Assembly (NCBI GenBank): GCA_003116975.1
Contig: BGKB01000254.1
Span: 1 to 56,458, forward strand
Source: Aurantiochytrium sp. KH105
Taxonomy: Eukaryota > Sar > Bigyra > Thraustochytrida > Thraustochytriidae
Direction of reading: 5' to 3'
Length of the DNA stretch: 56,458 nucleotides
The notes under the pieces are model-generated. The model saw only the letters and a program-made list of their open reading frames with translations. It was not told the DNA's origin and searched no databases. The translations under genes were made by a program, and so were the position numbers. Shown piece after piece: positions 21,019 to 43,221 of the stretch. The stretch's first letter is position 1. Every line of letters starts with the position of its first letter.

Positions 21019-21495
21019 CCTGACTGTTTGGCCTCTTTACGGCCTGGTTGCCAGGGTTCCGCTTCGAAGCGAATCAGTGTTGACGCTGCGAGCCTTGGTC
21101 TGGCTTCGTTTGTTCTTCTCCTCTGCCGGAAATAGATCTCGCGTTTGCTCCCGCGTTCGCCACACGATTTCTACGTTCTCTGTCTCGGCCTTTTCGCTTG
21201 CTGCTTTGCTCTGCTTTGCTCTGCTTTGATTTCCTTTCCTCTGCTTTGCTTGTAAGTTCGCACGTGCCTTCTTGTTACGCGCACTCAGCGCGCGAAACAC
21301 CGACTACGAATGAGGGGATCGACTTGTATTGCGATCGTCGCCAAGACCGTAGGATCAGCATAACACAGCTGACCAGCGAGCCACCCAGCCCGCTCGCCCG
21401 CGCGCCCTTCCGCTCGCCATCCAGGTCAAGGTGCGGCGTCAATGTCATCCAGAGTTCTCAGGCTCGCGTTCCTATTAACGGATCTTTTCATTGGG
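21019..21495 (-). promoter_or_regulatory. Upstream region of the orphan gene, with GCTTT repeats
   Basis: The 477 bp run between the orphan gene's start and the USB1 stop. GCTTT/CTGCTTTG units lie at 21201-21230 and 21241-21250; read on the minus (coding) strand these are AAAGC units, the same polarity as the repeats upstream of 6632 and 49800. No other motif was recognised. Confidence 0.4.
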
Positions 21496-22227
21496 TCATG
21501 ACGCTTGTAAAGACAGAGAGAACCGCTTGTCTCCACTCAATACAACGACCGTGCGCGCGTGCACCACAGTCGGCGGACCCGAGAGAGGCACATCGCGATC
21601 CCGAGGCGTATTGGCGAGGGCCGCTGGCTCGGCGGCAGAGGCGAGCGAAATGTGAGGCTCTGGATTCTCATAATATGATGGTCCCTTGAAAGCAATCGTG
21701 ACGCTGCTAATTGCATCAATCAGGGCCAGCACGCGGTCTGTGCCGCGCAGGGTGAGCAACGAAGCGAAGATGCGTGAGCGATTTTCACTCCGAAAAAAAC
21801 GAATGTGCTGGCCTGTTACCTGAAAGCTGGTCGTTGGAGCAATGGCGTCACGTATTGCATCCACAAATGGTTGAATCTGGTGCTCTCTCAGAGGAAAGGT
21901 TTTCGAAAGGCTCAAGTGCGGTTCCTGAATCGTAGATACCTCGGCCTCTGGGCGTGCATCTTCAAGGGCCTCGACGGCTTCTGTGACGAGATCCTCCGAG
22001 ATGTGGACTGGGATAGAGACAGATGTGGCCCAGTTCCCTTCCACGTGAGGAAACAATCGTTCTACGCGCGGACGATCACTCGCTTCAATTTCTTCGTTAC
22101 CGTTTTCATTGTCTTTAGCAATGTGGTTGTCAACAGCAACGTCAGATTTCCTCGCTGACTTGGCGCTGCGAAGATTGTCGCCATCGGACGCGTTCAGATC
22201 TTTGAGTTTTCTCTTCTCGGATGACAT
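21496..22227 (-). CDS. USB1: U6 snRNA phosphodiesterase USB1 (2H phosphoesterase)
   Basis: A 243-residue protein from ATG 22227. The two catalytic H-x-S motifs of the 2H phosphoesterase fold are present: EPHLSLSKT (His104, Ser106) and EPHISLASA (His192, Ser194), about 88 residues apart. The start of the domain, GNWATSVSIPVHI, also matches USB1/Mpn1 proteins, which begin their fold with a GNW..H-like strand. The first 55 residues are charged, lysine-rich and probably disordered with nuclear-localisation potential. USB1 trims the 3' oligouridine tail of U6 spliceosomal RNA, leaving a modified end that stabilises U6, and acts in the nucleus. Length is close to family size. It is divergent from the fusion gene at 22771. 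Confidence 0.9.
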   Translation of the reverse strand: MSSEKRKLKDLNASDGDNLRSAKSARKSDVAVDNHIAKDNENGNEEIEASDRPRVERLFPHVEGNWATSVSIPVHISEDLVTEAVEALEDARPEAEVSTIQEPHLSLSKTFPLREHQIQPFVDAIRDAIAPTTSFQVTGQHIRFFRSENRSRIFASLLTLRGTDRVLALIDAISSVTIAFKGPSYYENPEPHISLASAAEPAALANTPRDRDVPLSGPPTVVHARTVVVLSGDKRFSLSLQAS

Positions 22228-22770
22228 CCTGCGGCCCTTTCGTTTGTCAACGCTTCAGAACCTCCGAGAAGCTCCCCCCTGGCGTGGCAGCGTCTCTGCC
22301 CTCTCCGCCCAAAGGCGAGAAGCCTCGTCCCCCGGCCCGTGTCGGGCCCCTCCCTGGCTCCGTCCACCTGGTCCCGCCCCAAGACTGTTGTACTAATCTA
22401 ATCTGATCCTCTCCGCCCATCCATTCCTGTCGCACGTCTGCGTTTCGTCTCCCTTTTGTGCGCTCGCTCCGCGCGAGGCGGCGCAGCGCGGCGCGACGCG
22501 CGTCGCGCGGCGTTCTCGGTCGGGTCGCCGCGCCTCGCCTCCTCCAAAGAGGTCCCAAAGAGGTCCAGAGAGAGAGACCAGGCCGGGAGCCTTTGTGATG
22601 GCGATGATAAATCGATGAACGAAGTAGCAGAGCGCCAACAGCAACGAGCGGCTGCGGCGACAGCGGCGACAGCGGCGACCTGGAGGGAGGCCCGCGAGGC
22701 GGCCAAGGCGCCGAGGACCCGCGGAGCAGAGGCGGAGAGCAGACGCGAAACGGGAAGGGCGGAGAGCAAG
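22228..22770. promoter_or_regulatory. Divergent intergenic region
   Basis: The 543 bp lie between the USB1 start and the likely ATG of the fusion gene. The fusion frame stays open leftward to about 22456, but that extension is Ala/Arg-rich, begins without an obviously better start, and has no relation to phosphorylase N-termini. I therefore treat it as untranslated or promoter sequence. No core element was identified. Confidence 0.4.
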
Positions 22771-25023: not shown

Positions 25024-25602
25024 GAAGGAAGTTTGTCCTTTTCCAAGTCACCTTGTCTTGCGTTGCCATTTACATTTTTCGGTATACAAGAAATCACATC
25101 AGCCTTTTTCTTTCCTATTTCTTTCCTTTCCTCGCCTTTCCTTTTTTCTCTCCCTCTCGAATATTTTTCCTGTATAAAAAATAACTCGCATCCTGTGACA
25201 CGACACTGCTCTGCGACCGATCCCAGAACCTCGCGACACATCTGTCAGGCCTTCCGAAAAGAAGACAAGCAAAATCGAGTAATATCCAATACGATAGCCG
25301 TTGGGTTCGCCGTCGACTCAAATCTGCACGCTCGGGCCAGAAATAGACTTTCTTGTTGTACACGCACGAGACCAAAAACGTTGGTAAAAGGCCGGCAAGA
25401 GGTGACCCCCGGGTGCCACGAGTACTTGGGTGAGGCTTGCTGCGCCTCTCCGTTCGTCTCGTGTTGTTTGGCGCCGCGTTGGCGGCTTCGTCACAGACCC
25501 CATCGTCTCGTCTCGTCTCGTCTGGTCTCGTCTCGTGACGCTGTAGGCCAAGGTTCTGTTTCCTTGCGTACGGCCAGCCTGTGACCGTGGGACGAAGGGG
25601 TA
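25024..25602 (+). promoter_or_regulatory. Intergenic region before the kinesin gene, with CTCGT repeats
   Basis: Pyrimidine-rich sequence follows the fusion gene's stop (about 25025-25180). A CGTCT pentanucleotide tract at 25504-25536 lies about 70 bp before the kinesin ATG. A similar tract precedes the gene at 53650. No gene is supported in the interval. Confidence 0.45.
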
Positions 25603-27921
25603 ATGACGACGGGCGAAGACGCTCTCGTCGTGCGCGCCGAAGGCAACACAGCACCAAACAATGGCGCATGCCATGAGAACATAAAGGTCTTTATTCGGAT
25701 CCGACCATTGCTGGGCAGAGAGATTGCCGCGCCCGCAGTGACAGAGGTGAGCGAAGATGGGTCGACCGTCCGCGTAGAAACTGATCTTCACAATGTCAAT
25801 GCGCGTTTTGACCACGTTTTCGACTTGGACAGCAGCCAGGAAGAAGTTTATGCCAAAGTCCGCTTCGCAGCAGAATCCGTTGTTCAGGGATTCAACAGCA
25901 CCATCTTTGCGTATGGACAGACTGGATCAGGCAAGTCATTCACCATGTTTGGTCCTGAAGATGACCTTTCCATTTATGGCGCTGAAGAAGCCTCACGCAG
26001 CATGGGCGTGATTCCTCGCGCCGTGCGGGAAGTCCTTGCTATCGCAGAGTCGGAACGTTCGCGTAGCGGGAGAAGCCAGAGCGAAGACCAGGAGGACGAG
26101 GAGGTTTCCATTTACTGTAGCTTTATGCAGATTTACAACGACCAACCTTTCGACCTGTTGCGCGACCCCGGTCGAGAGCGTCCGCTACAGGTGCACGAGA
26201 ACACAGAAACAAAGGAGATTTACGTTGTTGGGTTGAGCGAATACGCCGTAACCTCTTTACACGAGTGCATGGCTCTGCTCGAGCAGGGTGATGAGCAACG
26301 CGCATGTCGGCAAACGCAAATGAATGACGTAAGTAGTCGAAGTCATTCCATTTTTCAAATGTGCGTGGAGCGGCGCAAGAAACGAAGCGGTCGAGTCGTG
26401 CGTGCCAAGCTCAATCTCGTAGATTTGGCAGGTTCAGAAAAGTGGGGCACAATGGAGCAGCTCGACAAGGGCCATGTCTCAGAGCTGACAAACATCAACA
26501 CAAGCCTGCACACGCTGGGACGATGCATCGCAGCGCTCACAAACCCCAAGGCTACGCATGTGCCGTTCCGCGACTCAAAACTCACGCGTATTTTGCAGGA
26601 CGCGCTTGGTGGCAATTCGCGAACGTGCATCATTGCAACTTTGTCTCCATCAGAAGCATATGTAGAGGAGTCGATCTCAACGTTAAAGTTTGCCGATCGC
26701 GCCAAACGCGTCATGCAACATGCCCACGTCGTGGAGACGCGCGAAGTATCGCTTGAACTTGTTCTCCGTCTTGAAGCTGAGATTGGACACCTGCGTCAGC
26801 TTCTGGATGCCAATGGAATTCCCTATGATAATAAAACCGATCTCGCTGGTCAAGGGGCGCTCGTCGTTTCGCATCTTCAAGACCAGGATTGGCAGGCCCC
26901 CGCCCAGGTAGCGACGTCATTAGCTCTCATGGATGGCTCCGCAGTGCCCTCACCAGGAACAAACTCGCACGCATTAGCGCTGCCGAGCGCGGCTGCAAAG
27001 GGCAATGCTTCGACCTCGTTTGCGATCGCAAAGGATCTCTTTGACGCGAAAGAGAGCATCGCTCGTCTTGAGCAGGAGAATCGAAGGCTTCGGGATGAAA
27101 TGGAGGCCGGAGCGACCCCTCGCAAGATGCAAGCTGCAATAGCAGTAGCCAAAAATGAGGCAGCAGCGGCCTCTTCGGGTGTCAAATCGGAGAATAAGAG
27201 GTTACGCGCGACACTTGCAAGCTTGAAACACTGTGCTGACAAGTTTTTTGCCTTTGAAGTGGAGGAGGAAGAGTTTCAGACCGAGTTCAAGCGACATTTC
27301 GCAAGTTGCTCGACTCTTGGTGGCGGCAGCAGTGGCTCTGGAAACAACAATGGCGAGCCCGCATACAATGGCCCTATTTCTCTCTCGCCTCGAGCGCCTG
27401 CAACGGGTGCCCCTGCGACGTATCGCTTGCGAGGCATGGGAGATCGAGTAGAGCACTCGGGGCCTCTCGGAAGCAAGACGCCGAATGAATGTGCTTCTCC
27501 GAATAAGTCCAACAAGAAAAAGACGAAGTCAAAGACCGCACAAGGGCGTAGCCTCGCACAAGAGGAGAGAAATGTCGGCAGCGGCGTTGGCCTTGGCCTT
27601 GGTGCTGGCGGCGGCGTGGATGGATCCACGAATGGAACACGAAGTCTTGCGTCAAGTCTACGTGAGAAGCAAAAGGAGCTGGCGAAACACAAAAAGCTTC
27701 AACAATGGATTGCGGCCAAGGCGCAACGCGAGCTCGAGCGTCTCGAGGAGGACCGAAAACGAGATGAGGAGGATGACAAAGACCAGGTCGCTCGGGACGC
27801 CAAATTTCGAAAACACGCCTCCTTTGTCAAGCAAAAGCTGCGCAACATGAAAAATAGAGCACGCGTAGCGGATGCGCCTTCCAATGCGGATCAATTGAGC
27901 CCTACACCCCAGGACTCATAA
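25603..27921 (+). CDS. Kinesin motor protein (N-terminal motor)
   Basis: A 772-residue protein from ATG 25603. The motor occupies about residues 25-375, with the P-loop GQTGSGKS (105-112), switch I SSRSHSIF, switch II DLAGSEK, INTSLHTLG and PFRDSKLTR, all in family order. The motor is therefore expected to hydrolyse ATP and move on microtubules, and an N-terminal motor usually means plus-end-directed movement. After the motor come a short coiled coil (about 480-510), a Gly/Ser- and Lys-rich disordered linker, and a strongly charged C-terminal coiled coil (about 680-755, LEEDRKRDEEDDK). The subfamily cannot be assigned by eye, and no membrane, PH or FHA domain was seen. The linker DQEDEE inside the motor is a small acidic loop insertion. 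Confidence 0.93.
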   Translation: MTTGEDALVVRAEGNTAPNNGACHENIKVFIRIRPLLGREIAAPAVTEVSEDGSTVRVETDLHNVNARFDHVFDLDSSQEEVYAKVRFAAESVVQGFNSTIFAYGQTGSGKSFTMFGPEDDLSIYGAEEASRSMGVIPRAVREVLAIAESERSRSGRSQSEDQEDEEVSIYCSFMQIYNDQPFDLLRDPGRERPLQVHENTETKEIYVVGLSEYAVTSLHECMALLEQGDEQRACRQTQMNDVSSRSHSIFQMCVERRKKRSGRVVRAKLNLVDLAGSEKWGTMEQLDKGHVSELTNINTSLHTLGRCIAALTNPKATHVPFRDSKLTRILQDALGGNSRTCIIATLSPSEAYVEESISTLKFADRAKRVMQHAHVVETREVSLELVLRLEAEIGHLRQLLDANGIPYDNKTDLAGQGALVVSHLQDQDWQAPAQVATSLALMDGSAVPSPGTNSHALALPSAAAKGNASTSFAIAKDLFDAKESIARLEQENRRLRDEMEAGATPRKMQAAIAVAKNEAAAASSGVKSENKRLRATLASLKHCADKFFAFEVEEEEFQTEFKRHFASCSTLGGGSSGSGNNNGEPAYNGPISLSPRAPATGAPATYRLRGMGDRVEHSGPLGSKTPNECASPNKSNKKKTKSKTAQGRSLAQEERNVGSGVGLGLGAGGGVDGSTNGTRSLASSLREKQKELAKHKKLQQWIAAKAQRELERLEEDRKRDEEDDKDQVARDAKFRKHASFVKQKLRNMKNRARVADAPSNADQLSPTPQDS

Positions 27922-28514
27922 AAAGAGAAAAGAAAAGGATTTTAGGTTTTGGACTACGTTCTTTGTCGGTTCCGCGGCGATTCCAAAAATACAGGCCCAA
28001 AGCCGCGGGAGCTTTATAAAGCAGAGACATCGCGTCTTCTGATGGACCTCTCTGCAAGATCTTCATTCGTTGTGACGATGTCAAGGCTCTCGAAACAATC
28101 CCCATATTTCACTATACGTATACACCGGGGCTGTTTTCTGTGGGTGTTTGCGAATTTTCTTTATGCTTTCTCCCGGAGAAATCGGCGAAATAGGCAAAAT
28201 CAGACAAGCAGTCGCAATCAGCAATCAAATCAGACTCGCAAAGCTGCAGCGTTCGCGGCGGCGATCATCAAGCAGCCCTCTTGCGCGCGCGAGATTGACG
28301 GGGCTCACCGGATTGCCCGCCGGGCCGTCGTCCGACGCTCACATTCTTTCGCGTCTAGCTCCGCGGCGTTTAAGCTTCGAGCCCAGGGCCAACACACACG
28401 TGATCGTGAACGAAGGAGCAACTCCACGTGCACACGGGAGACAAGTAATATACGTGCTCGAACTCATCTTGCCAAAAAGCCTGCATTCTTGCTCAAACTT
28501 GCAAAGCCCGCGAG
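27922..28514. other. Intergenic region upstream of the LRR-Roc-COR-TIR gene
   Basis: The 593 bp separate two plus-strand genes. About 27955-27995 is an imperfect inverted copy of 2821-2868. An open frame covers much of the interval but is Arg/Ser-rich with no motif, so I do not call it. The promoter of the next gene is presumably here. Confidence 0.45.
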
Positions 28515-31500
28515 ATGCAGGCCAGACGCTTGCTTGCCTTTCTTTCACTCACTTTCCGCTCGCTGAAAATGGCCATTTTCTTTCCAAGACCACCAAAGCG
28601 TGACATACCACTCCGCTTGCTGGGAATTGCCGATTTCTTATCAGAATCATGGCGTGGCATACCATTCGAAGTCTATTCGATTGCCGACGCAATTCAAGCA
28701 ATGTCACATGGAAGACCCTCGCTGAGGTAAGTCGAGCGAGCAAACCCGAACTGCCGATAGGCCCAGATCTGGCGTGCGTTGCAATGCATTGGTTTTATTC
28801 TGACGCAAAGACTGTCATGTCTTTTGAATCTCGCTCTTCCGATCACATTGCACATAAAATGCGCAATTCTAGAATCTCGGCAAGTAATATTGACGATGAT
28901 GGCGCCACAGCGCTGGCGAATGCGCTAAAGACTAACGCGTCACTGAAGGTGCTTATGTAAGTAGCGTGATGGTGAGGCAAAGAAAGTTTGCAAAGAACGA
29001 AGACGATTAACCAGCTCGCAATGGTACAAATCACTCAATCCGATACATGATGCTATGGTGATTCTTCCCTTCCTTCGATCATGCTGCCATGCATGTTTTC
29101 AATTCCCCACAGTTTCGGTGGAAGGCAATTCCTGTCCAGATCTTCGAGCAACAAATCTTCGAGCAACAAAATTGGCGATGATGGCGCGACAGCGCTGGCG
29201 AATGCGCTCAAGGAGAACACGTCGCTGCAGGAGCTTGAGTAAGTAGCGTGATGGTGAGGCAAAGAAAGTTTGCAAAGAACGAAAACGACTGACCAGCTCG
29301 CAATGGTACAAATCATCCAATCCAATACATGATGCTATGATCGTTCCTTTCTTCCTTCGATCATGCTGACATGCATGGTTTCCGTCTCCCCATTGTGTCC
29401 ATGGAAAATACAATCGCAGTCTTGCGGACAACCAAATTGGCTACAACGGCGCCACAGCGCTTGCGTGTGCGCTCAAGGAGAACACCTCGCTGCAGGTGCT
29501 AATGTAAGTATCGTGATGGTGGGGCAAAGAGAGCTTGCAAAGAACGAAGACGACTGATCAGCTCGCGATGGTTCAAATCATCCAACCCGATACATAATGC
29601 TATGATTGTTCTTCTCTTCCTTCGATCATGCTGCAATGCATGGTTTCCGAATCCCCACTGTGTCCATGAGATGCACAATCGCAGTCTTCGGTGTAACAAA
29701 GTTGGCGACGATAGCGCGACAGCGCTGGCGAATGCGCTGAAGAAGAACACGTCGCTGCAGAAGGTTGAGTAAGTTGCTCAAGAGGGAGCAAATAAAGGTT
29801 GCAAAGAACGAAGACGACTGACCAGCTCGCAATGGTACAAATCATCCAACCCGATATATGATGCTATGAACGTTCTTCTCTTCCTTCGATTATGCTGCCA
29901 TGCATGGTTGTACGTTTTCACTTTACGCATAAATATGCACAATTGCAGTCTTGGGGGCAACCAAATTGGCGATGATGGCGCGACCGCGCTAGCAAATTCG
30001 CTCAAGAAAAACGCATCGCTGAAATTGCTTGAGTAAGTAGCGTGAGAGTGAAAAAAAATCTCGCAAAGATCGAAGACGACTGACCAGCTCGCAATGGTAC
30101 AAACCATCCAATCCGATACATAATGCTGTGATTGTTCTTCTCTTCCTTCGATCATGCTGCCATGCATGGGTTCCAATCCCCCACTGTGTCCATGAAATGC
30201 ATAATCGCAGTCTTGGGGGCAACCAAGTTGGCAATGTTGGCGCGACAGCACTGGCGAATGCGCTCGAGGAGAACGCGTCGCTGCAGGAGCTCGAGTAAGT
30301 AGCGTGATGACGAGGCAAAGAAAGCGTACAAAGAACGAAGACGTCTGACCAGCTCGCACTGGTACAAATCGTCCAACCGTATACATGATGCAATGATTGT
30401 TCTTCTCTTCCTTTGATCATGCTGACGTATATGGTTTTTGTTTTCACTTTGCACATAAAATGCACAACCGCAGTCTCTGGAACAACCAAATTGGCAAAAA
30501 TGGTGCGACAGCGCTGGCGAATGCGCTCAAGGAGAACACGTCGCTGCGAAAGCTTGAGTAAGTAGCGTGATGGGGAGGCAAGGTGAGCTTGCAAAGAACG
30601 AAGACGACTGACCAGCTCGCACTGGTACAAATCACCCAACCCGATACATGATGCTATGATTGTTCTTCTCTTCCTTTGATCTTGCTGCCATGCATATCAT
30701 ACATTTCCAATTTGCCAATAAAATGCACAATCGCAGTCTGGGGGGCAACCAAGTTGACGATGATGGCGCGACGTTTCTGGCTTTTGCGCTTGATGAGAAC
30801 AAGTCGCTGCAGAAACTTACGTAAGTTGCTTGAGGGGAAGCAAAGTAAGCTTGCAAAGAACGAAGACGACTGACCAGCTTGCAATGGTACAACTCATCCA
30901 ATTCGATACATGATGCAATGCTTATTCTTCTCTTCCTTCGATCATGCTGCATGCATGGTTTCCCATTCCCCACTGTGTCCATCAATGCACAATCGCAGTC
31001 TTGAGGGCAACCAAATTGGTGACGATGGTGCGACAGCACTGGCGAATGCGCTAAAGAAGAACGCGTCGCTCCAGAAGCTCAAGTAAGTTGCTCAAGGGAA
31101 GTAAAGGAAGCTTGCAGAAACGAGAACGACTGACCAGCTCGCAATGGTACAAATCATCCAACCCGATACATACTGCCATGGTTTTTCCTGTCTTCCTTCG
31201 AACATGCTGACATGATTTTATTCCAATTTCCCGCTGTGTCCATGAAATGCACATCGCAGACTTGAAGGGAACAAAATTGGCGATGATGGCGCGGCAGCGC
31301 TGGTGAATGCGCTCAAGGAGAACACCTCGCTGCAGGATCTTTTGTAAGTTGGGAGTGAGGGAAGGAAGACTGTATTTGAGAAGCGAGAAGAACTAATGCA
31401 AATTCGTCCAATACACTCTGATATTCTTCCCGTTTATCATTCATGTGTTGTTTGGTATCACCAATTTAAAATTAAAAAAAACGAGAGCAGACTTTATGGT

Positions 31501-34500
31501 CCCAATGATGGCCTAATTTGGTCGTACAGAATCTATGTAGAGATCTCAAAAAACAGGTATGTACAATTGTCAGAATGAAGAGAAGGACGAAATTCTAATA
31601 GTGAGCCTCGCTTTGGCCTATTTCATTTTTCTTCATCGAACCACGTCTTGATGGTTTTTTTCACACTTTAGAGACGAGACCGCTCGCAATGAGAAACGCG
31701 TGAAGATTGTAGCCCAGAAGCAAGACGAATCTGAAGTTGCGCAAAAGCTGGAGTACGTTGAGTCGAGATTTTCGCATAAGCTGAACCGACCTGAACTGAC
31801 GTTTTGCGAAATACAAACCAATCATGATTTTCGGCATTTGGGTTATCAATCTAGTCTCAACATTGTTTCCAATGAGTACAGTCGTTCCGGTGATGACATT
31901 GGTGCACAAGACGAGACGTCTCGCAGAGAAGAGCGCGCAACAATTGCAGCCCAGAAGCAAGCCGAAATTGAGGCTGTGAAAGAATTGGAGTACGTTGAGT
32001 TGAGATTTTCGCATAAGCTAGACCGAGATTAATTAACGTTTTGCGAAAATTCACGTACGCACCTCCGTCGACATTGGTGTTTGCTTCCCTTTGGGTCTCA
32101 TGATTTTTCTTGGATGGGCATAGTCGATCCGGTGATGGCATTGGTCCACATGGCGCCAAAGAAATAGTGAACAGCCTCGCAAAATGTACACAGCTCCATT
32201 CTTTGAAGTAGGTTCTGGGAAAATTACGGAGAAGAACGAAGGTTGATTTTTTGTTACTTTTTGAAAAACATATCAGACTCACGCAGCGAGACGTGGTTAC
32301 TTATCTCTCGAACGTGCGCTACTTTACAACCACCCTCGCAGTCTTTCCAAGAACAGTATCGGCGATAGTGGTGCCGAGGCCGTGGCATGCGCGCTTGCCG
32401 AGCATATGTCGCTGCAGAACTTGAAGTATGTGGTGAGAACGGTCAAAAGCGTTTTGCAAAAGACCAAGAAAGACTGACCTGGATTTCTGCGGTTCTCCGT
32501 ACTTGCCGATAAAATTGCAATCGGTTCCATGAGCGTAGTCTTGGGGCTGACGAGATAGGCCCCATTGGCGCCAAGGCTGTAGCGGATATGCTCGAGAAGA
32601 ACGAGTCCTTATTGACGCTCAAGTAGGTGATCATGAGAGGCGAAAAAGTGCGCGAATTTCTGATCACTGACGATGAGGCAACTCATGGCACTGTACTTTG
32701 CAACTTGCTGCTCGTCGTCACACAAATACAGTCTTGGCTGGAACTGTATCAGCGACGGTGGCGCCGCGGCAATGGCGAGATCGCTTGCCGCGAACAGAAC
32801 GCTATGTTCTCTCGAGTACGTAGAAACAGAACGTTGTAACTGAGCAATAAGACTAACCACCAGGCTTCCTCGCGGTGCTATCGTATTTCGATCTTTCTTT
32901 ACGAACCAACGCAGTCTTCAGAAGAACGGGATCAGCGCTGATGGCGCCAAGGAGATTGCGGAGGCTTTCGTGAAGTCTCAAGTGCTGGAGTTGCTCAAGT
33001 AAGAACTACAGTATCGAAAATGAGGCGTGATGATTCGAAGAAGGCTGACAAGTTTGTATGGCAAAACGGCTTCTGAACATGCGCACTTTGGTGGTGTTTG
33101 CTCAAATGGCAAGCGCAGTCTGGGATGGAATGCTATTGGTGATGATGGCGCTGTGCATGTGGCCAAAGCGCTCGAGGAGAATAAGTCACTGTTGTTCCTG
33201 GAGTAAGTGAACCCAAAACGATCGGGTGCACGTTGAATGCAAGGAGTCTCACCATTTCCAAACCAAATGCAAAATCTTATTGTGGTACGCAGTATTGCAA
33301 GGAACAAGATTGGTAATGTAGGCGCTGTGGCTGTGGCGGGCGCACTACTGAAGAATAAGTCGCTGCACACTCTGAAGTAAGTATTTGCGAGAGAGCATTG
33401 CGGAGAAAGGAGTAGCATGGACTAACGAAGATGCATTCACGTTTTCCTGTGGCGTTTCCTCGCATATTCATGAATCCGTATGATGCAAAACCACACAGAT
33501 TTCGTAGCAACGATATCACGGAGGATGGCGCTGAACAGCTAGCAAATGCGCTTGCCAAGAGCGAGTCACTACAGGCGCTAGAGTAGGTTCTATTGATCAT
33601 ATATGGCGGTACTCAAGAAGCGAGTATGACTAACGATAGCGTGATACTCGTCGTAATATGGTTCAATGTGCATGTTCGTGGGCTCTGTATGACGATCAAA
33701 ACACTCCTCATCTTCACAGTCTTGCAAAGAACAGAGTCGGTATGCCTGGCGCAAGATCTCTCGCGGGCGCTCTCACGGAGAACACGACGCTGCACTTTCT
33801 CGAGTAGGTTCTTATGATGATGGCAAAGGAGCAAAATAAGCTTAGCTGACGAGCATGCTCATTAACTATATCTTTCCGACCCGCGCTTGGTGTCGCAATT
33901 CACAGTATATCTGACAACCACATCGGGAATGATGGTGCTTCTGCGCTAGCAGGCGCACTCGCTCAGATCAAGTCCCTCATGACGCTACAGTACGTTGGCA
34001 TGGCGGGGTCAGGGTGTTGGCGCTGTATAAAACTGACCAGCACTTGCTCATCTTTTTGACGATTTTACAAACTACTTATCGCGTTCAGTCTTCAAAACAA
34101 TGCTATTGGGGACGTCGGCGCGAATGAGATTGCGAAAGCGCTCGCGGCAAACAATTCTCTGCAGTCTCTGAAGTACGTTGGATTCGGAAAGGCGCTTGAA
34201 CAGAGGGAAATTGTAACTTACGAAGACGCCGTCGAAAAAACGTTCAATTTCCTGTAATCTTGCCATCCTGGTTCTTTGCGAATGACTGCAGTCTCTCTGA
34301 GAACCTTATCGGTCCACATGGCGCTGAAGCCATGGCTGGTGCGCTCGTGAAGAATAGTACACTCGAGGAGCTTGAGTACGTTATTGCCAAAATACAAAAA
34401 CGATCGAAGACAAATGAAATCTCTAACAAACGTGCGCACCATCACGCCGAAATGATCGGCATTGTCATCTTTCATCTTTCCAAGTCTTGGAGACAACGTT

Positions 34501-37427
34501 ATCGATGATGAAGGCGCCAAAAAGCTGGCAGAGGCGCTTGAGCGGAATAATTCATCTCTTCAATCCCTCGAGTACGTTTGCCGCCAACACATCAGACTCA
34601 GAGTCATTGTAGCATGCAATTGCTGACTATTTTACGAGAAAACAGTCTCACTGGATGTAGGATTGGAAACGAAGGCGCTGAAGCTTTTGCCATAGCGCTC
34701 GAGAGCAACGATATCTTGCAGGAGTTAGCGTAAGTTCGCCCCCCACTTTTCGCCTTGAGAACGTCAATCATGCAAGGACGACTCACGTGATTTATGAACA
34801 GTCTTGGCCATATTCCCCATGCATCTCCCGATTTTCTTGCTCGTATTGGCTCTCGCCTCAAGCTTGTCAAGGATGAGCTAGATGAGCTGAGCGAAGCAGC
34901 GGCTGAGGCGCTCAGGACAGATCAAAAGGTGCGCTGGGGGCGTGCCAAGCTTATGGTTGTGGGCAAGGCAGCCGCAGGCAAAACGTCGACGATCCGCACG
35001 CTCCTGGACCAGCCATTCGTACCTGAACATGTCTCAACGATTGGAATAGATCTGATGCTTATGCACACGCGAGACTGGAGGGAACGAAAGAACATTGGCG
35101 ATGCAGATCTCGGCGAACAATTCGCAAAGCACAAGTATCGGAACATAACGAAGCATGACGAGCTGGATCAGTCTGAGGCTCCGTCATCGAAAGACGCAGC
35201 GCGTAGCGTTCCCAAGGCGCCACGCGCTGCCCCACCTGCCATTTCAGCCAGCAGTGCTTCCGCTGTGCGTCAACCTCCGCCGCAGGCTCCATCAGTCCAG
35301 TTTGACGAGGAGGTAATTGCGAAAGCTGTAAATACCCCGCTTCGCATTCGTGTCAAGGAGCAAGCCGGAAATGAGAAAGAAGAGATCAGCTTTACGATAT
35401 GGGACTACGGTGGTCAGGAGGTCTTTTACGCGCTGCATCACCTGTTCCTGACGCAGTATGGCGTCTATGTTGTGGTCTTCGACATGCGCGAGGTGCTGGG
35501 TAAGGAGCGCTTCGAAGAAAAGCTTGACGAGGAAGAGCTTGCGAAGCTCGCCTCGCAAGACGACGCGATTCAGACGCTTCGTTTCTGGCTCGACTCTATC
35601 CGATTGCACGCGCCAGGCGTCGAGGTTGCGCTGGTTGGGACATTCCTGGACCAGGTTCCAGAGCTTGGTCAGCATCATGAAATCCAAGAGACTCTGGAAG
35701 AGAGGATTTTTGACGAAATGGATGGCGATCCTAAGATTCAAAGGAACATTTGGAAAGAGGAGTTCCTTCAATTTTTCCCCATCAACAATCAAGATCGCGA
35801 GGATGTAGACGGACACGTTGCGCGTCTCAAGGATCAGCTGACAAAATCCGTGGCAGACAAGGCGTTTGTGAAGGAGAAGGTGCCTCTTCGCTGGTCCTAC
35901 TGCCTGGACCGATTGCTTCAACAAAGCGACCCATACATGCAGTTTGGCACTGTTGAGGCGCTTGCTGTGACGAAGTGTTTCGTTGCCAAGAAGGATGTCA
36001 GGAAGATGCTCGAATACCTGCATGAGCTCGGCGTGCTTTTGTACTTTTCCAAGAATGACGCATTGTGCAAACTCGTTGTGATTCGTCCGCAGTGGCTATT
36101 GAAACATCTGTCACGCGTCATTTGCGATCCAGGCGCAATGCACATGAGAAGGCACATGAACAGACTACGGTCGGGAGCCGGAGATCGCGCCGCCCTTCCT
36201 CCCCATCTCGATGCTGCGCTTCGTCGGTGGAAATCTCACGCCGTTGTCAGTCGTGCTTTGCTGGAGTTTTTGTGGAAAGGCAACCCTGTTGACTTTCTCG
36301 TATCATTGATGGAGTCGACATTGCTGGCATGTCCGAGTCCTTGGGTCAGCGATGACGCTGGCAAGAAGGACACAATTTTGGTGCCGAGTCTTTTGCGCGC
36401 TGCATCGGAGCACGACAAGGAGGATGGACGAAGATGGGTCGGGGACTCTTCTCTTGCCTACGTCGACTTCGAGCTTCTGCCAAAGGGCTTCTTCCAGCGT
36501 CTCGTGGCTCTTCTTTTCCAGGAATTTCAGGGTGTGGCGACCGTGGGTGAGAAGGTTTTCGCGGACGTGGCGAGAGTTGACTTTCACGGCATGTCGTGCC
36601 TCATGGAGGTATCGCAACGACGGATCACGTTTCGCTTCGGCAATGCTCGACGGGGTCGCCCGCTCGCATCGCTTCTCGCATTGTTGAGCAAGGAACTGAA
36701 GGAAATCGACGAAACGTTCATGAGGGGCAAACTGGGACCAAAGTTATATGTCAGCTCCGACGGAACCGGCAACGACAAGTTTTGTGCTCTTGCGGAATCC
36801 CTCGCAAACCCTCTGGAGGGCAACACGATTCGAACGCGATCGTCATGTCAACCACTTGAAGATTTTGCATCGTTTGTGAATGGGACCTCTCAGGCTCAAA
36901 TGCTCGGAGAGTCTCAAGCTCGAGGGAAGTCAGAGTCAGTCGCAGGCGCTGAATACCAGTATGATGCTTTCCTTTCTCACGCATGGGGTCCCGCAAATAT
37001 ATCACATGATAAGGTAAAGGCCGTCGAACGAAAGCTGGCGGAGCGTGGCATTCGGTGTTGGATTGATGCGAATGACATCGGGTCAGAAATTTATCGGTCC
37101 ATAACGGATGGCATCGACAAGTCCCGGACCACCGTCATCTTCGTGACGCGCGAATACATGGAAAAGGTGAACGTGGAGCTTTCGAAGGATGACTATTGTC
37201 GCATGGAGTTCCACTACGCGATGAACCGTCAAAAACCTGTTCGTGTGATTCCATGCGTGCTTGACAAGGACATGGCGGACTCGAGCGAATGGAAGGGGCC
37301 ATTTCTTCTTCGTTGGAGTGGAGAACCACTTTTCGTCCCAATGTATAGCGAGGTCGAACCTACTGATGCGGAGATTGCCGAACTTGCACAGAGGATCAAA
37401 GTCACGATTTCTCAGAACCAGCTGTAG
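28515..37427 (+). CDS. LRR-Roc-COR-TIR protein encoded one LRR per exon
   Basis: Inferred exons: 28515-28726, 28873-28956, 29140-29238, 29420-29503, 29685-29768, 29949-30032, 30211-30294, 30474-30557, 30737-30820, 30999-31082, 31260-31343, 31530-31556 (uncertain), 31672-31752, 31882-31989, 32124-32207, 32342-32425, 32539-32622, 32732-32815, 32915-32998, 33119-33202, 33293-33376, 33499-33582, 33720-33803, 33906-33989, 34089-34172, 34292-34375, 34485-34571, 34646-34729, 34802-37427. All introns are GT-AG and phase 2; the sum is 5088 nt, about 1695 residues. Twenty-four exons each give one ribonuclease-inhibitor-type LRR (L..N.IGDDGA.ALA.AL..N.SL..L). The last exon has a Roc GTPase (P-loop GKAAAGKT 875-882; DYGGQ from 1022; GTFLDQ about 1101), a COR domain, and a TIR domain from about 1540 (YDAFLSHAW) with Glu1583 in IGSEIYRSI, the position of the NADase glutamate. 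I infer a cytosolic receptor or signalling GTPase. The first exon and start are the least certain parts. Confidence 0.82.
28873..31343 (+). repeat. Ten-copy tandem array of LRR exon plus intron, period about 263 bp
   Basis: Exon starts are spaced 267, 280, 265, 264, 262, 263, 263, 262 and 261 bp. Introns are 177-183 bp and alike along their whole length, sharing blocks such as AACGAAGACGACTGACCAGC and CTTCGATCATGCTGCCATGC. All ten exons are open in the same phase. Intron similarity is comparable with exon similarity, by eye roughly four-fifths between some pairs. This indicates recent duplication or conversion of whole exon-intron units. The 14 LRR exons after 32124 have shorter, unlike introns. 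Confidence 0.93.
31530..31989 (+). other. Duplicated charged-helix exon cassette between the two LRR blocks
   Basis: Exons 31672-31752 and 31882-31989 encode related charged helices (IVAQKQDESEVAQKLE and IAAQKQAEIEAVKELE) and are followed by intron starts that are also alike (GTACGTTGAGT-GAGATTTTCGC). The first copy is 81 nt; a possible 27-nt exon at 31530-31556 before it would make 108 nt, exactly the length of the second. The cassette interrupts the solenoid and could act as a coiled-coil spacer. Confidence 0.6.
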
Positions 37428-37755
37428 GCCCAGCTAGAATGGATAAGAAGCATGCATGCAAGTTAGCGAGAAAGTGTAAAACATTGAGTGCGAGTGAGAG
37501 TGAACGATATCTGATAAGCTTCACGGCGAAAACTTTTCACTAGAACTGCAGGGTCCCCTAGAAGAGGGATGTTTCTGCAAAAATTTCGTTGATTATTTCT
37601 CGCATGCGAGATAGAATGGAAAGTGGGTCACAGCATAGTAAGACACAAAAAGTCATAACGCCCTATTCGCAGGGCAGATGTACATCTGCGTCCATTGATG
37701 TCGCGAGATGTTCGACAGCCAGAAACTGGTTTCAAGCTCTCGACTTGCACGCGGC
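37428..37755. other. Convergent intergenic region
   Basis: The 328 bp follow the TIR-domain stop codon and end at the stop of the minus-strand mitochondrial protein gene. The sequence is AT-richer than the flanks, with no gene or recognised signal. Confidence 0.5.
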
Positions 37756-38211
37756 TCAGGCGAGTTCCTTCGGGACGTCAAGACCGACACGCGAGGCGGT
37801 CGCCTTGACGCGTTCCTTCTCGGTAAGCTTTGCGGTGTCGTTCCATTCGACGGTAAGACGTAGTTTTTCGCGGGTGGCCGCAAGCAAAAGCGCATAGTCA
37901 TTGGCGACTTGGTCGGCGCCCTCAATGTCGGCCTTCTCGACAGCGCCCTTGAAGTCAGTGATGAGCTTCTTTTCATTGTCGTTGCAATCGAGCGAGGCAA
38001 AGTAGTCATCAATTGATTCCGCAAAGGGCACGTCATCCGCGTCCTGTGCGCTCAGCGTGTTATGTTGTCTGCGCAGCTGCTCCCTGTCCAGCAACTCGCG
38101 CTCCACGGCATGATGTTTCCCGCCGCTTGCCGCGCTCAAGAGTCGTGCACCGCTCGGCGCAGCCGTTCGCCTCGCCGTGACGCCGGCGGCACGCACCCCA
38201 AGCGCAAGCAT
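37756..38211 (-). CDS. Small protein with probable mitochondrial presequence, family unknown
   Basis: A 151-residue protein using the first ATG at 38211; the frame continues upstream only with non-ATG codons. The N-terminus, MLALGVRAAGVTARR followed by more Ala, Ser and Arg without acidic residues, is a typical mitochondrial targeting sequence, with possible cleavage before about residue 30. The mature part is hydrophilic and helical, with an acidic middle (DADDVPFAESIDDYF) and a Lys/Glu-rich end. There is no membrane span, metal site or enzyme motif. Its size would suit an accessory subunit of a respiratory complex or ATP synthase, but nothing in the sequence shows that. It is divergent from the coiled-coil gene at 39073. 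Confidence 0.72.
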   Translation of the reverse strand: MLALGVRAAGVTARRTAAPSGARLLSAASGGKHHAVERELLDREQLRRQHNTLSAQDADDVPFAESIDDYFASLDCNDNEKKLITDFKGAVEKADIEGADQVANDYALLLAATREKLRLTVEWNDTAKLTEKERVKATASRVGLDVPKELA

Positions 38212-39072
38212 CCTTGCCACACGCAGCGCAGTGCAGCGCAGACCTCGTCTCTCGCGCACGACGCCAAGCACTCCAACCAAGTCTGCTGCTACGTCTTTTC
38301 GCGGGACCGAGAGGCACTTGAAAAAGAAGAAGAAGAAGACTGCGGGATCACGATGATTTTGGCGATCACCTTGAGTATTGGTGTTGGACGCAACATCCAG
38401 TCAAGTGTAACAGTCGGGTATACCTCGGCGCAGTTGGCGTATGCGTAGAGTGAGATAGTCGAGTTTTTAAGGACGCATGTTTCGCAGTTGCAAAGCCCAA
38501 TATTCGATCGTCACCAGAAGCCTACATTAGCCTCCAAAAACAAAGAAAGCAAGGCGAAGTAAACAACAAAACAGCTGCCAGCGAAAGGTGTCAATGATAA
38601 AGCGCCAATTCTTTTTTTTTAAGAATGTAACCAAGTATTTGCATACTTTGTGGGCAGCACATCGAGACCAAAATCAATGTCCGGCCTGTTCTCGAAATGA
38701 TACCGGCGGGTCGTCACGACCAGCTCTGAAACCCGAATTAGCACCGACATGTCCCAAACTAGGATGCCCGGACTCACGCGCAACAGGTCCAAGTCTGAGG
38801 TCCCGAAGTTTTGCACGTGTTTGTCCGCCGAAATTGGGGTTCTGCGCAACTCCCCCTTTCTCCAAAATCTGGAGCCCTAGCTCGCTAAAATTAGTGTTCT
38901 GCGCAACCCCTTTTCCAGAATCGGGGGCCCGAGGGGGAAGGCGATCATTGCCGCCTACAACGCGGAGACGGCGCGGCAGAGCGCAAACATCGGCAGAGAG
39001 AAAGCCGTGCAGGGCAGGGCAGGGCAGCGCGGGGCGGGGCGAGGAGGCAGGCAGGCAGGCGGGCGCGGCAGG
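38212..39072. promoter_or_regulatory. Divergent intergenic region with a direct repeat
   Basis: The 861 bp lie between two divergent start codons. They contain an imperfect direct repeat at 38831-38931 and short GGGCA and GGCAG runs just before ATG 39073. No supported gene. The promoters of both flanking genes are expected here. Confidence 0.4.
38831..38931. repeat. Imperfect direct repeat of about 45 bp
   Basis: Copies at 38831-38876 and 38887-38931 share the core GTTCTGCGCAAC followed by a C/T-rich tract and an AGAATC/AAAATC-GG-GCCC end. They may be the remains of a longer tandem element. Confidence 0.7.
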
Positions 39073-40245
39073 ATGGAGGCGGCGGCGTTCGGGTGCGCTG
39101 CGTCGAGCGTGGTGCTGGTGGCGGCGGCGCGGCAGCGCGCGTTTTGGCGGCGGCGCGAGGCGGCCAAGCTACGCGGCGCGGGCGCGGGCGAGGACGGCGC
39201 GGCGCGCGAGGCGCGGCAGGGCGGCCACGACGGGGAGACGGAGGCCGGCGTGTCCGTGGAGAGCACTAGCGTCGGCAGCGTCCGGAACGCGGAGGCGCAG
39301 CTCGAGCTTGAGCGCGAAGAGCGTGTGCGCGTGAGCCGCGAGCTCGAGGCCGCGCAGGCGCGCCTGGAGGAGACGGAGCGCGCGCTGGTGGAGCGCGACG
39401 AGGCCCGCGCAGCTCTGGCGAGGGAATGCAGACTTCGTAAGATCATCGAGGACGAGGCCCGTGCAGCCGCCAACGATTCCACGCGGACCGCCGAGAACGA
39501 CTCGGCTCGTGCCGACCTTGAGGCACGGCTCGAGGCCGCTACGCAGGAGAGCGCTCGTCTGCAGGCGGAGCTCAACGCTGCGCAGGAGAGACTCGAGATC
39601 TTGGAGGACGCATACCACGAGAAGAGCCTCGCATGCGAGCAGCTCGAGCAATCGTCCGGTGCTCGCGTGCGTGTCTCTTTCGGTGCAGGGCCCGTCGCTG
39701 CTCCTGTTGCCACGGAGCCGCTCCTGGAGGCTGCGCTAGCGCGCGAGGAGGCAGCCCTCGATCGAGTCATTGCGCTTGAGCAGGCTCTCGAGGAGGCGCG
39801 GGCCACGACGGCCGCGCATGATGCTGAGGCGGCCGCATGTGTCGAGGCGTTGCAGGATAAGCTGTACCAGCATCGCACTGCAGAGTCATCGCTGCGAGAA
39901 GAGGTGGAGGCATTGCGCGCCAAGCTGAACGCCAATGGCCCGACTTTGAACCAGGATGCTTCGATTGAGGAGCTCCGCACGCGGTATCTCGTAGTGAGCC
40001 AGCTTGAGTTGGCGCTCCGGGAGGCGCAGGAAGCTGCGCTCAAGGATCGCGAGCAGCACGCCAGTGTCGTCGGAGATCTCGAGCGCGCCTTGGAACACAA
40101 TCGCGAACTCACCGAGCGTTTGGAGGAGGCGGTGGGAAGCGCCGCAGCCAAGGCTGCGGCCGAGGAAGGCGGTTCTAGCATGCTGGACCCCGTGCAGGGT
40201 GCGCAGGCCGTCGCCTGTCTCATGGCCGGAGTGATGCTCTGGTAA
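39073..40245 (+). CDS. Coiled-coil protein with hydrophobic N-terminus
   Basis: A 390-residue protein from ATG 39073, which has a good context (purine at -3, G at +4). The open frame begins 22 codons earlier, but only with GTG in a G-rich repeat. Residues 4-20 are hydrophobic (FGCAASSVVLVAAA) and are followed by Arg-rich sequence, so a membrane anchor or mitochondrial presequence is possible. From about residue 75 to 365 it is almost continuous heptad-like coiled coil rich in Glu, Ala, Arg and Leu (LELEREERVRVSRELE), with one break near 200-215. The C-terminus is short and hydrophobic (ACLMAGVMLW). It could be a tether or scaffold; coiled coils are not enough to assign homology. A long antisense frame of Ser/Arg composition is not real. 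Confidence 0.8.
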   Translation: MEAAAFGCAASSVVLVAAARQRAFWRRREAAKLRGAGAGEDGAAREARQGGHDGETEAGVSVESTSVGSVRNAEAQLELEREERVRVSRELEAAQARLEETERALVERDEARAALARECRLRKIIEDEARAAANDSTRTAENDSARADLEARLEAATQESARLQAELNAAQERLEILEDAYHEKSLACEQLEQSSGARVRVSFGAGPVAAPVATEPLLEAALAREEAALDRVIALEQALEEARATTAAHDAEAAACVEALQDKLYQHRTAESSLREEVEALRAKLNANGPTLNQDASIEELRTRYLVVSQLELALREAQEAALKDREQHASVVGDLERALEHNRELTERLEEAVGSAAAKAAAEEGGSSMLDPVQGAQAVACLMAGVMLW

Positions 40246-40407
40246 AGCAAGCGTCCTTGGTCCTTTTCCCCCTTCTTTTGTATTGCACATTGTTTTGACC
40301 TTTTCTCACACAGTATTCTACCCAACTGTTTCATCTCTTCTTCTTTTTTACCTCAAGCAACAACATTAATAATTTTCCATCTTTCTCATCGTTCTGCAGG
40401 TGTTACG

Positions 40408-43221
40408 TCAAAAGTCAAAGTCATAGTCATCGTCATTGTCGTGATCTGGACTTTCAAGCACGCGCCTTTTCTTCCTTCCTCGAGGCGCGGATACAGCATC
40501 AGGATCAACGCCCGTGGCTGTTTTGGAGGTCGACATGGCATCGTCGAGTTCATGTTCACTGTCGGACGTCAGGTCGCTCTCGATGCGGTTCGGAGAATCC
40601 TTGCTTTGGTCTCCATTGTCGCTCTCCTCAGCAGCCTTGTCCGCGTCTTCGAGAGCCAAGCTTGTTTTGTGCGACTGAGCGTGGACCCAGGTGACCACAT
40701 CATTACCGAGTTCTGTTGCCGCAGCGCGCATCGCTGGGTCGGGAATGTCGAGAGGTCCAATGTAGGGCTGCCACAGGTGCTTGGACTCTTCTTCAGTTGC
40801 CCTTTTCGTCATAAGATCGTACGTGTCGCAGTCAGTGTTGGCATTGTACTCGAAAAGCTGCTTGAGTTCAGCGCGAGAGAACTTTGCCGACTTGCTCGCG
40901 GCGCCACTTTTGGCCGTGGTCGCACCCTGATGGAGGATGCCTTGAGCAGAGTTGAGTTTCACTTCTTGACGCTGAAAGATGCGCTCTTCGATCGTTCCCG
41001 TGGCGATGAAGCGGTAAATGAAGACTTGTGACTTTTGTCCGTCGCGCCAAATGCGCGCGGCAGCTTGTTGGTCTGTTGCAGGATTCCAATCGAGATCGAG
41101 GAGTACAAGTCGACTTGCACCCACAAGATTGAGCCCGCAACCGCCCGCACGTGCCGACAATAAAAATGCAAACGGAAAGCCCCGCTGCATCGGATCCCCA
41201 CGGTAAGGCGCGTTGAAACGATTGACGAGCCCCTGACGGTCCGCTGCAGTGGTCGAGCCGTCGAGGCGCAAAAAGCCATACGTGCGTCTGTCAAGCATTG
41301 CTTCGACAAGATTCAGCGTTTTGGTCGAATTGGACACCAAAACGATGCGGTCCAACGGCTGCGCTTTGCGAATTTGGACCAGAAAGTTTTCAAGCAGTCC
41401 AAACTTGGCGCTCACCATAGGTGAAAAGCAGAGAGGCACTTTGCCATCGTTGACAGCTGATGTTTTGGTGAGCGGCGACAGCGTAGACTCTGCCGCAGTA
41501 GCGCCAACAGCAGAAGACGGGGACGAGGCCGACGAGGAGGACGTCGAACGGTCGGACGCGGCCTGCATTTCCGCAACAAGGCGCGGGTGCGTGCAAAGCT
41601 GACGCAAGTAGTGAATGAGCTTTAGTGCATCGGTTCCGGACGCCGAAGAAGAAGATCCGTAGAGATGTGTGCGCACGTACTCTTGATAAGACGTTGCTTG
41701 GTCGGGAGAGAGGCGCACAAAAACGTTGACGTCGGTCCGCGGTGGCAGAAAGCGCTCATTGACGGCAGCGGTGCGACGCAAGATGAGACCGGCGGTGAGA
41801 GCTTGAAGTTCTTTCGAGCGCGCCGCGGCAAGCTCGCGGTCATCCGCAGAGGCCCCGCGATCGGTCCCGCGCTCAATGGGCGTCTGAAAAATCCGCTGAA
41901 AGGAGCGTACGTCCGTTCCAAGCGCGCTAGGTGCGACGAAATCGACCATGGCATAGAATTCTGCAAGATCGTTCTGCACGGGCGTGCCAGTGAGGAGGAT
42001 GCGGCGGCGCGTCTTGCAGCCCTGGAGAGCAGAGATTGTTTGATTGCCGCTGGCCGACTTGAGTCTGTGTCCCTCGTCGCAAATGACCAAGTCGATGCCG
42101 CGGATCGCGTTGAGCGTGGTCGCATGCTTGCGGAAGCTTTCATAGCTGACAATGAGAACGCGGCGCATCTTCGAACGCGAGAACTCCTCGATGATTGCTA
42201 GAGATTCCTTGGCCGTCCCCGAGACGGCAAAGGGCTGAATACGCTCGATGCCGAGCCACTTGCGAAATTCCGCATCCCAGTTCTTGACCAGAGAACTCGG
42301 GGTGACGACGACGACCCGGTGACACCACGGATCGCCCGTTGCGCCCCGCGGGCCCTGGCGAAGTACGGTCCAGATGAGCGTAATGCATTGGAGTGTCTTG
42401 CCAAGTCCCATTTCATCGGCCAAAATTGCGCCCTTGGACTTGGCGATGTTGTCAAAGAGGAACTGGACGCCCTCGCGCTGATGAGGACGAAGAAGTTTGC
42501 CAAGTTTGGGGTCAACCACTGTCGAGGCAGTGCCCTTGGACTCATCGCCACGCAAGAGAACAAGGGCATTCGGCGAGGTATCCGGGTGAAGAGGTGAGGC
42601 GGCCGCCACAGTCCGTGAAAGACTGGGACCTGGGCGACCAGGGCCAGCGCCAAGCCCAACTCTTTTGAATGGCTTGCGTGCGCCGCCCGTGGCAGCAGTA
42701 GCAGATGTCAAGGGGAGATTTGGATTTGAAGTGGCCAGAGGAGTGGATTTGGCACCGATAAAGAGGCGGCCCGAATCAAAGTCTGCAACCGTGACACGCG
42801 TTCCGACTTCGACCTCACGTCCTGCGACTGCGAGGGTGCAGCCTTCTGGCAAGGCGTCCTCATTTGCGTGCTTGTAAGAGGTGCGTCCCAGAACTTTGCC
42901 GTCCATCTCATAAAGGATGGCCTTGTTCTTTTCAAGCAAGAGAATGCCGTCGTCCCAGACTTTACGCTTTTTGTTGGACCTCTTCGTGTGCAGCGCCGTG
43001 TAGACTTGCTTTGTTCCATTCTCTGCTGTCGCTTGCTTCGCTTCTTGCGGCTGCGGCCCTCGCACAGCCCGAGAAGCAGGAAGCCCTGTCGCTTTGGTCG
43101 TCGCGTTCCGCGCGATGGCTCCGTTTCCCGCGCCAGGGGCACGAGGAGCACCGGCAGCACCGGGGGGAGCGGCGGGCGCGCCCACGCGGCGCGGCGCCTT
43201 GAAGCCTCGGCTGCGCCGCAT
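40408..43221 (-). CDS. RAD54B: RAD54B-type SNF2 recombination translocase
   Basis: A 937-residue protein using ATG 43221. After a disordered Arg/Pro/Ala-rich start, residues of about 75-165 form a small domain (TKRSNKKRKVWDDGILLL, then VADFDSGRLFIG) matching the N-terminal DUF2439-like region of RAD54B and ZGRF1 proteins. The SNF2 ATPase follows: motif I DEMGLGKTLQ, motif II as CDEGHRLK (the DEGH form typical of RAD54), LTGTPVQNDL, and the second lobe with LDLDWNPATDQQAAARIWRDGQ. The C-terminus is acidic and Ser-rich, ending DNDDDYDFDF. It should be a nuclear double-stranded DNA translocase assisting Rad51 in homologous recombination. The N-terminal domain favours RAD54B over RAD54. The gene is convergent with the coiled-coil gene, 162 bp away. 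Confidence 0.93.
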   Translation of the reverse strand: MRRSRGFKAPRRVGAPAAPPGAAGAPRAPGAGNGAIARNATTKATGLPASRAVRGPQPQEAKQATAENGTKQVYTALHTKRSNKKRKVWDDGILLLEKNKAILYEMDGKVLGRTSYKHANEDALPEGCTLAVAGREVEVGTRVTVADFDSGRLFIGAKSTPLATSNPNLPLTSATAATGGARKPFKRVGLGAGPGRPGPSLSRTVAAASPLHPDTSPNALVLLRGDESKGTASTVVDPKLGKLLRPHQREGVQFLFDNIAKSKGAILADEMGLGKTLQCITLIWTVLRQGPRGATGDPWCHRVVVVTPSSLVKNWDAEFRKWLGIERIQPFAVSGTAKESLAIIEEFSRSKMRRVLIVSYESFRKHATTLNAIRGIDLVICDEGHRLKSASGNQTISALQGCKTRRRILLTGTPVQNDLAEFYAMVDFVAPSALGTDVRSFQRIFQTPIERGTDRGASADDRELAAARSKELQALTAGLILRRTAAVNERFLPPRTDVNVFVRLSPDQATSYQEYVRTHLYGSSSSASGTDALKLIHYLRQLCTHPRLVAEMQAASDRSTSSSSASSPSSAVGATAAESTLSPLTKTSAVNDGKVPLCFSPMVSAKFGLLENFLVQIRKAQPLDRIVLVSNSTKTLNLVEAMLDRRTYGFLRLDGSTTAADRQGLVNRFNAPYRGDPMQRGFPFAFLLSARAGGCGLNLVGASRLVLLDLDWNPATDQQAAARIWRDGQKSQVFIYRFIATGTIEERIFQRQEVKLNSAQGILHQGATTAKSGAASKSAKFSRAELKQLFEYNANTDCDTYDLMTKRATEEESKHLWQPYIGPLDIPDPAMRAAATELGNDVVTWVHAQSHKTSLALEDADKAAEESDNGDQSKDSPNRIESDLTSDSEHELDDAMSTSKTATGVDPDAVSAPRGRKKRRVLESPDHDNDDDYDFDF

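Follow-up and report, generated by a model that had tools for sequence, protein, structure and literature searches.

Does the gene at positions 28515 to 37427 of contig BGKB01000254.1 from the thraustochytrid Aurantiochytrium sp. KH105 encode an innate immune receptor built around a Roc GTPase? A first-pass annotation of the window, i.e., the whole 56,458-nucleotide stretch that was analyzed, had proposed this, describing a multi-exon gene in which leucine-rich repeats (LRRs), a Roc GTPase, a COR domain and a TIR domain form a single chain. With moderate confidence, we consider the product to be an intracellular receptor resembling the nucleotide-binding, leucine-rich repeat receptors (NLRs), with a Roc-COR switch, a repeat array under diversifying selection and a TIR effector. 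We favor this reading, and the proposal of a candidate receptor is supported, because different sensors (LRR or WD40) are carried by a related core, the family has many copies, the repeat number differs between haplotypes, and omega, the ratio of nonsynonymous to synonymous divergence, exceeds 1 at three codons of the concave face.

The gene model was obtained by in silico splicing of the + strand. It comprises 28 exons, one fewer than had been announced, and its coding sequence of 5061 bases specifies 1686 residues; as claimed, the length is divisible by three, and the single continuous frame has no internal stop. All 27 introns are of the GT-AG type and in phase 2. Twenty-four exons encode one LRR apiece (22 of 84 bases, one of 87 and one of 99 bases, the latter containing a 15-base duplication) and lead in phase 2 into a large last exon, in agreement with the first-pass annotation. 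Exon 1 (28515..28726) was defined as an open reading frame that ends, in phase 2, at a GTAAGT donor. Its start codon is uncertain, the aligned allele on contig C20 having TTG in place of the ATG, as are the two predicted helical exons described below and the way in which exon 3 is spliced.

Exons 2 to 11 form array A, 10 LRR exons (28873..31343) with a period of approximately 264 bases and phase-2 introns. Array A is followed by a charged, probably helical spacer (31672..31989) of two exons, 12 and 13 (31672-31752 and 31882-31989), the first of which may be a duplication absent from related copies; in four related loci, the longest stretch that could be aligned locally begins only at 31927-31953. 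Exons 14 to 27 constitute array B, with 14 LRR exons (32124..34729), 13 of which were scanned; their order is preserved in the C20 haplotype and in three related copies. The last exon (34802..37427) encodes a helix, Roc, COR-A/COR-B, a linker and TIR up to the TAG stop codon, as delineated by Pfam, Protein Data Bank (PDB) profile, AlphaFold2 and fold searches. A regular expression built from the gene's own LRR exons (phase 2, AG/GT borders, LRR motif) recovered 20 of the 24 and had no match in a 103,816-base control made up of both strands of the remaining window and the minus strand of the gene region; the exon pattern is therefore not due to chance.

Pfam searches identified Roc (E = 4.2e-17), COR-A (7.7e-14) and TIR_2 (4.7e-15) in the last exon and LRR_6 (9.7e-116) in residues 1-849, so that each of the domains named by the first-pass annotation was matched. 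Roc and COR-A both score above their Pfam cut-offs, which makes the protein a member of the Roco family, and TIR_2 reaches 56.6 bits against a cut-off of 28, which makes it a TIR protein; the TIR profile PF01582 gives 20.1 bits, slightly under its cut-off of 21.3. In a PDB profile search the last exon matched CtRoco (E = 1.4e-32), and fold searches with its AlphaFold2 model (predicted local distance difference test score, 79.7) returned LRRK2 and Roco2. The Roc P-loop GKAAAGKT (residues 866-873; 34962..34985) and the switch II sequence DYGGQ (residues 1013-1017; 35403..35417) were located in this exon. In alignment A1, which has 26 rows, the Asp, the second Gly and the Gln of switch II and the preceding Trp are invariant, while its Tyr and first Gly are conserved in at least 90%.

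The TIR domain (36960..37424) was delimited by Pfam, the PDB profile and Foldseek, with Foldseek matches starting from an E value of 3.7e-4. By alignment, Glu1614 of its CRMEF sequence (37206..37208) is a candidate NADase catalytic residue: it aligns with the Glu of WDEL in Cat1, and we take the residue at this place to be the catalytic one of TIR NADases. Glu occupies this column in 30 of 33 aligned TIRs, Gln being found in L024 and P0020 and Gly in P0008. No kinase domain appeared among the Pfam matches on the last exon at E ≤ 1; TIR stands after COR instead, so that the protein is not an LRRK kinase. Toll-like receptors have a signal peptide and, between LRR and TIR, a transmembrane helix; in this protein, Roc-COR is located between LRR and TIR. 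Neither NB-ARC nor NACHT was matched on the last exon (Pfam, E ≤ 1) or in residues 1-849 (E ≤ 0.001), which rules out a classical NLR. The idea that Roc-COR is used instead of NACHT holds for this gene but does not extend to the genome. The whole assembly contains 2 weak NB-ARC places, 17 NACHT places and a second large NLR-like family, NPHP3_N (NACHT-like, of the STAND class), with 80 places, at least one of which carries TIR in frame (TIR_2 plus NPHP3_N in L033, 2-2023, minus strand).

How large is the family to which the gene belongs? The assembly (76.03 Mb, 367 contigs) retains both haplotypes, as the first 30 places of a Roc search fall into 15 pairs whose members have equal or near-equal scores and lie on different contigs, and as the kinesin gene upstream of the receptor gene has exactly one further full copy, 96% identical, on C20. 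COR-A was found at 124 places (E ≤ 0.001), and its cut-off was exceeded at 116; COR and TIR counts refer to places, some in broken frames or fragments, and not to genes. Because these places pair between haplotypes, we infer a haploid family size near 60. With 150 of 258 TIR candidates scored, TIR_2 lies in the same open frame at 85 of the 124 places; evidence of a C-terminal TIR was obtained at 111 (91 with TIR_2 within 1.8 kb downstream and 20 by alignment into the TIR of the window protein). WD40 repeats were detected upstream of 56 places, 54 of which have TIR, with 69 of 646 WD40 candidates scored; L022, L026 and L027 encode WD40-Roc-COR-TIR within a single frame. Stop codons interrupt 23 of 70 WD40 matches. 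Some may lie upstream of the true start, the query having been read from stop to stop, and others may be marks of pseudogenes.

At least two LRR exons of the 84-base type were present in 17 of 20 fetched 10-kb stretches, some overlapping, which represent 20 of the 123 other COR places; all these exons are in the sense orientation, none antisense, and the exon chains end directly upstream of the Roc frame. Other members depart from this layout. L035 encodes an LRR_8-Roc-COR protein and L036 has an open frame (3-4136) joining actin and Roc-COR, neither with TIR in the part read. A lone fragment near a contig start (C123:2072-2968) shares 90% identity with residues 575-873 of the window gene's last exon (the TIR end) and may stem from another copy that is broken or was left unassembled. 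When alignment A1 was used in pattern-plus-tblastn scans, to which only close relatives were accessible, these confirmed none of 59 stretches that matched the pattern in genome_contigs and none of 13 in viral_contigs; an origin of the complete chain in bacteria, archaea or viruses was rejected, no relative having been found.

Predicted proteins of Hondaea fermentalgiana provided a second view of the family (P0001 to P0010). P0001, the first exon of which resembles exon 1 of the window gene (...SIADAIQAM...), is a single protein that comprises the first exon, LRRs, Roc and COR, ends before TIR and has three array-A repeats as modeled. It is 90.6% identical to the window protein over 681 residues and very probably represents the same locus. 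LRR, Roc and COR are also joined in P0002, P0003, P0005 and P0006. The names given to Hondaea models, "Leucine-rich repeat serine/threonine-protein kinase" and "NACHT, LRR and PYD," do not match the domains found. P0004 combines kinase, PH, Roc, COR and TIR in one predicted protein and may be a fused gene model.

Comparison of the two haplotypes revealed that array A changes in length. Window positions 21062-28569 (92.8% identity) and 31953-42808 (92.6%) align collinearly with C20. Between these segments, the array-A LRR exons number 10 in the window but 16 in the C20 allele, whereas the 13 scanned exons of array B match one to one. When each array-A unit is paired with its closest counterpart on the other haplotype, no consistent order emerges. 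As mean identity among the units of an allele is 73-75% and collinearity holds on either side of the array, an assembly error is unlikely to account for the difference. Nevertheless, the C20 count could be off by one or two, because its units 13, 14 and 15 are 93-95% identical to one another. A DNA search with one array-A unit, with 15 candidates scored, matched only Roco-bearing contigs (C254, C20, C265, C97 and C200; weakly C41, C197 and C13) and thus found no orphan LRR cassettes that could serve as a donor reservoir. Array A has at least 7 LRR exons on C265 in a chained scan, and about 10 units by DNA search; L025 on C41 has a similar homogeneous array of 14 LRR exons. Within the last exon, divergence from C20 is 5-14%, except at 36403-37002 (2-3.5%) and 37203-37402 (3.5%), and dS after COR is 0.038; the block at 36403-37002 looks as after gene conversion.

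We then asked which positions of the repeats vary. The analysis of array A included 42 units from five gene copies, leaving out the 99-base exon of the window gene, and divergence was counted by the Nei-Gojobori method. Nonsynonymous divergence is highest at codons 2, 3 and 26, which correspond to exposed positions of LxxLxLxxN on the predicted concave binding face; of 2925 codon triples, none but this one reaches its value. The proportion of nonsynonymous differences (pN) is 0.643 there (95% interval, 0.604-0.681) and 0.140 at the other 24 codons, and omega is 3.31 (2.61-4.35) versus 0.35 elsewhere. The 42 units display 39 different residue combinations, and those of the three cassettes modeled in P0001 fall outside these 39. 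In array B, with 13 exons compared at equal positions in the five copies, pN is 0.038 at codons 2, 3 and 26 and 0.055 elsewhere, for a synonymous proportion (pS) of 0.191. The Roc-COR-TIR exon has an omega of 0.31; it and array B are under purifying selection. A pseudogene is rejected for the last exon, which is open in both haplotypes with this omega.

Several observations weigh against a diversified immune receptor. The codon triple was fixed after the data had been seen. The first set, codons 2, 3, 25 and 26, gave a pN of 0.494, a value that 24 of 17,550 four-codon sets reach, for a pS of 0.457, because codon 25 hardly varies. Omega differs by copy, from 1.63 (window, 9 units) to 4.17 (C20) and 2.44 (L018). 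Concave positions vary between repeats in LRR proteins generally, and when different array-B repeats of the window gene are compared with one another, pN at codons 2, 3 and 26 is also high (0.683 versus 0.373 elsewhere). Intron divergence (0.206) is lower than pS (0.332), so that introns are not a clean neutral yardstick. Array-A units recombine and are not independent, and Nei-Gojobori counting ignores recombination. A clear change in LRR number was observed in one of seven presumed haplotype pairs, window/C20. The related pair C97/C200, verified like window/C20 by longer alignment, has 5 array-A units and a count of 18 LRRs on each side; four presumed pairs of other members have 3/3, 5/5, 6/6 and 7/7 LRRs, and C17/C36 has 10/9 by an imperfect scan. 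Repeat gain or loss is thus confined, among the compared pairs, to the subfamily of the window gene. Lastly, TIR domains can be pure scaffolds, and this one is a candidate NADase.

If the transcript is spliced in vivo as modeled and the protein is cytosolic, an NLR-like receptor could work as follows. Array A, with 10 to 16 LRRs, would bind the ligand through a surface that varies, and array B would be a conserved scaffold by which array A is coupled to the switch. A bound ligand would relieve autoinhibition, and Roc would then change its nucleotide state along with the COR-mediated dimeric or oligomeric state. The C-terminal TIRs, thereby brought together, might form an effector that consumes NAD, makes a second messenger or induces cell death, in a response possibly directed against viruses or other intracellular parasites. 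Unequal exchange and gene conversion between generations, acting on the 264-base exon-intron units and followed by selection, are the most likely source of the diversity of array A.

Could the ligands be those of conspecifics? A role in self/non-self recognition or programmed cell death between conspecifics, like that of fungal incompatibility genes, appears unlikely to us, although large families of LRR and WD40 sensors and high allelic divergence would suit it equally: between haplotypes, dS is 0.171 in the Roc-COR-TIR exon and 0.110 and 0.087 in two neighboring genes. The WD40 alternative also resembles the NLR-like incompatibility genes of fungi. The sequence gives no reason to prefer self ligands to foreign ones. 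It is similarly doubtful that the gene encodes a general signaling Roco, with functions in the cytoskeleton, trafficking or the cell cycle, endogenous partners of the LRRs and neutral turnover of repeats. The similarity of Roc-COR to LRRK2 and LRRK1 and the equal LRR counts in C97/C200 and the four other pairs fit such a function, but TIR accompanies COR at the 111 places mentioned above, and, to our knowledge, TIR is rare in housekeeping Rocos. Furthermore, neutrality does not account for an omega of approximately 3.3 at three concave codons, within the limits set by a post hoc triple and recombining units.

We regard as very improbable that array-A cassettes are shuffled by recombination in mitotically growing cells, which would give a clonal population many receptor versions, an anticipatory repertoire and protist counterpart of variable lymphocyte receptors with Roc-COR-TIR as its basis; the 10 versus 16 cassettes, the 39 combinations among 42 units and the new combinations in P0001 fit mitotic shuffling and germ-line change equally well. 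It is scarcely credible that the LRR exons form a gene or transcript distinct from that of the Roc-COR-TIR exon, for although splicing was deduced from the sequence, 27 phase-2 junctions preserve one continuous frame, the LRR exons of 17 of 20 fetched loci are in sense and end just upstream of Roc, and five Hondaea models join LRR, Roc and COR.

Two neighbors of the receptor gene were noted. At 22492-25020, the window encodes S-methyl-5'-thioadenosine phosphorylase (MTAP) fused with an amidohydrolase similar to methylthioadenosine/S-adenosylhomocysteine deaminases; the fusion also occurs in Hondaea and in other entries carrying both Pfam domains. Its product and the Hondaea protein P0048 are 100% identical along 89% of the query, so that the window stems from this species or one very close to it. 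The receptor, by contrast, diverges from P0001 by 9.4%, which points either to very fast local change or to a mosaic public assembly. Approximately 10 kb upstream of the receptor gene, an open frame of 1674 residues (13117-18141) appears by eye to be rich in classical LRRs.

How does the NLR-like receptor compare with known systems? LRR-ROCOs of brown algae were reportedly put forward as candidate immune receptors by Zambounis in 2012. Plant TIR-NB-LRR proteins and animal and fungal NLRs likewise unite sensor repeats, a nucleotide switch and a signaling domain in one chain and form large diversified families; in contrast, the window gene has a Roc-COR GTPase in place of NB-ARC or NACHT, with an N-terminal sensor and a C-terminal TIR. 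The Chlorobium tepidum Roco (3dpu, 6hlu) and LRRK1/LRRK2 share its LRR-Roc-COR core and fold but are devoid of TIR, and LRRKs have a kinase domain and WD40 repeats after COR.

According to the brown-algal study (Teng 2024, PMC11378527), the LRR-ROCOs of these algae have LRR exons of 72 bp in phase 2 and no TIR, and they show exon turnover, positive selection at concave-face sites and many copies. The parallel drawn in the first-pass annotation stands for LRR-Roc-COR, the one-LRR exons and exon turnover, to which phase 2, concave-face selection and high copy number can be added. It fails for exon length and TIR, since the exons here are of 84 bp (a 28-residue repeat) and TIR is C-terminal, so that the gene does not fall within that class; the WD40 alternative and the unicellular host are further differences. 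The same study describes TPR-ROCO-TIR proteins in the red alga Chondrus crispus, which has five ROCOs; they combine Roc-COR and TIR in one protein as here, with TPR replacing LRR or WD40. It also gives a figure of 47 ROCOs, reports four or fewer in unicellular SAR relatives, and on that ground ties ROCO diversity to multicellularity. The 124 COR places in the two-haplotype genome of a unicellular thraustochytrid, some of them fragments, speak against that tie as presented there, and approximately 60 ROCOs per haploid set would exceed the figure of 47.

We found no earlier description of an LRR/WD40-Roc-COR-TIR family in thraustochytrids in the open-license literature. Relative to the brown-algal LRR-ROCOs, the novelty is a TIR-bearing version in a unicellular stramenopile, which suggests that Roc-COR is a further receptor switch recruited into an NLR-like repertoire with a TIR effector, in a culturable group. 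The window/C20 pair of haplotypes offers a ready test system for how LRR cassettes gain ligand specificity. The gene thus probably works like the brown-algal LRR-ROCOs and the NLRs, while belonging to neither as they are defined.
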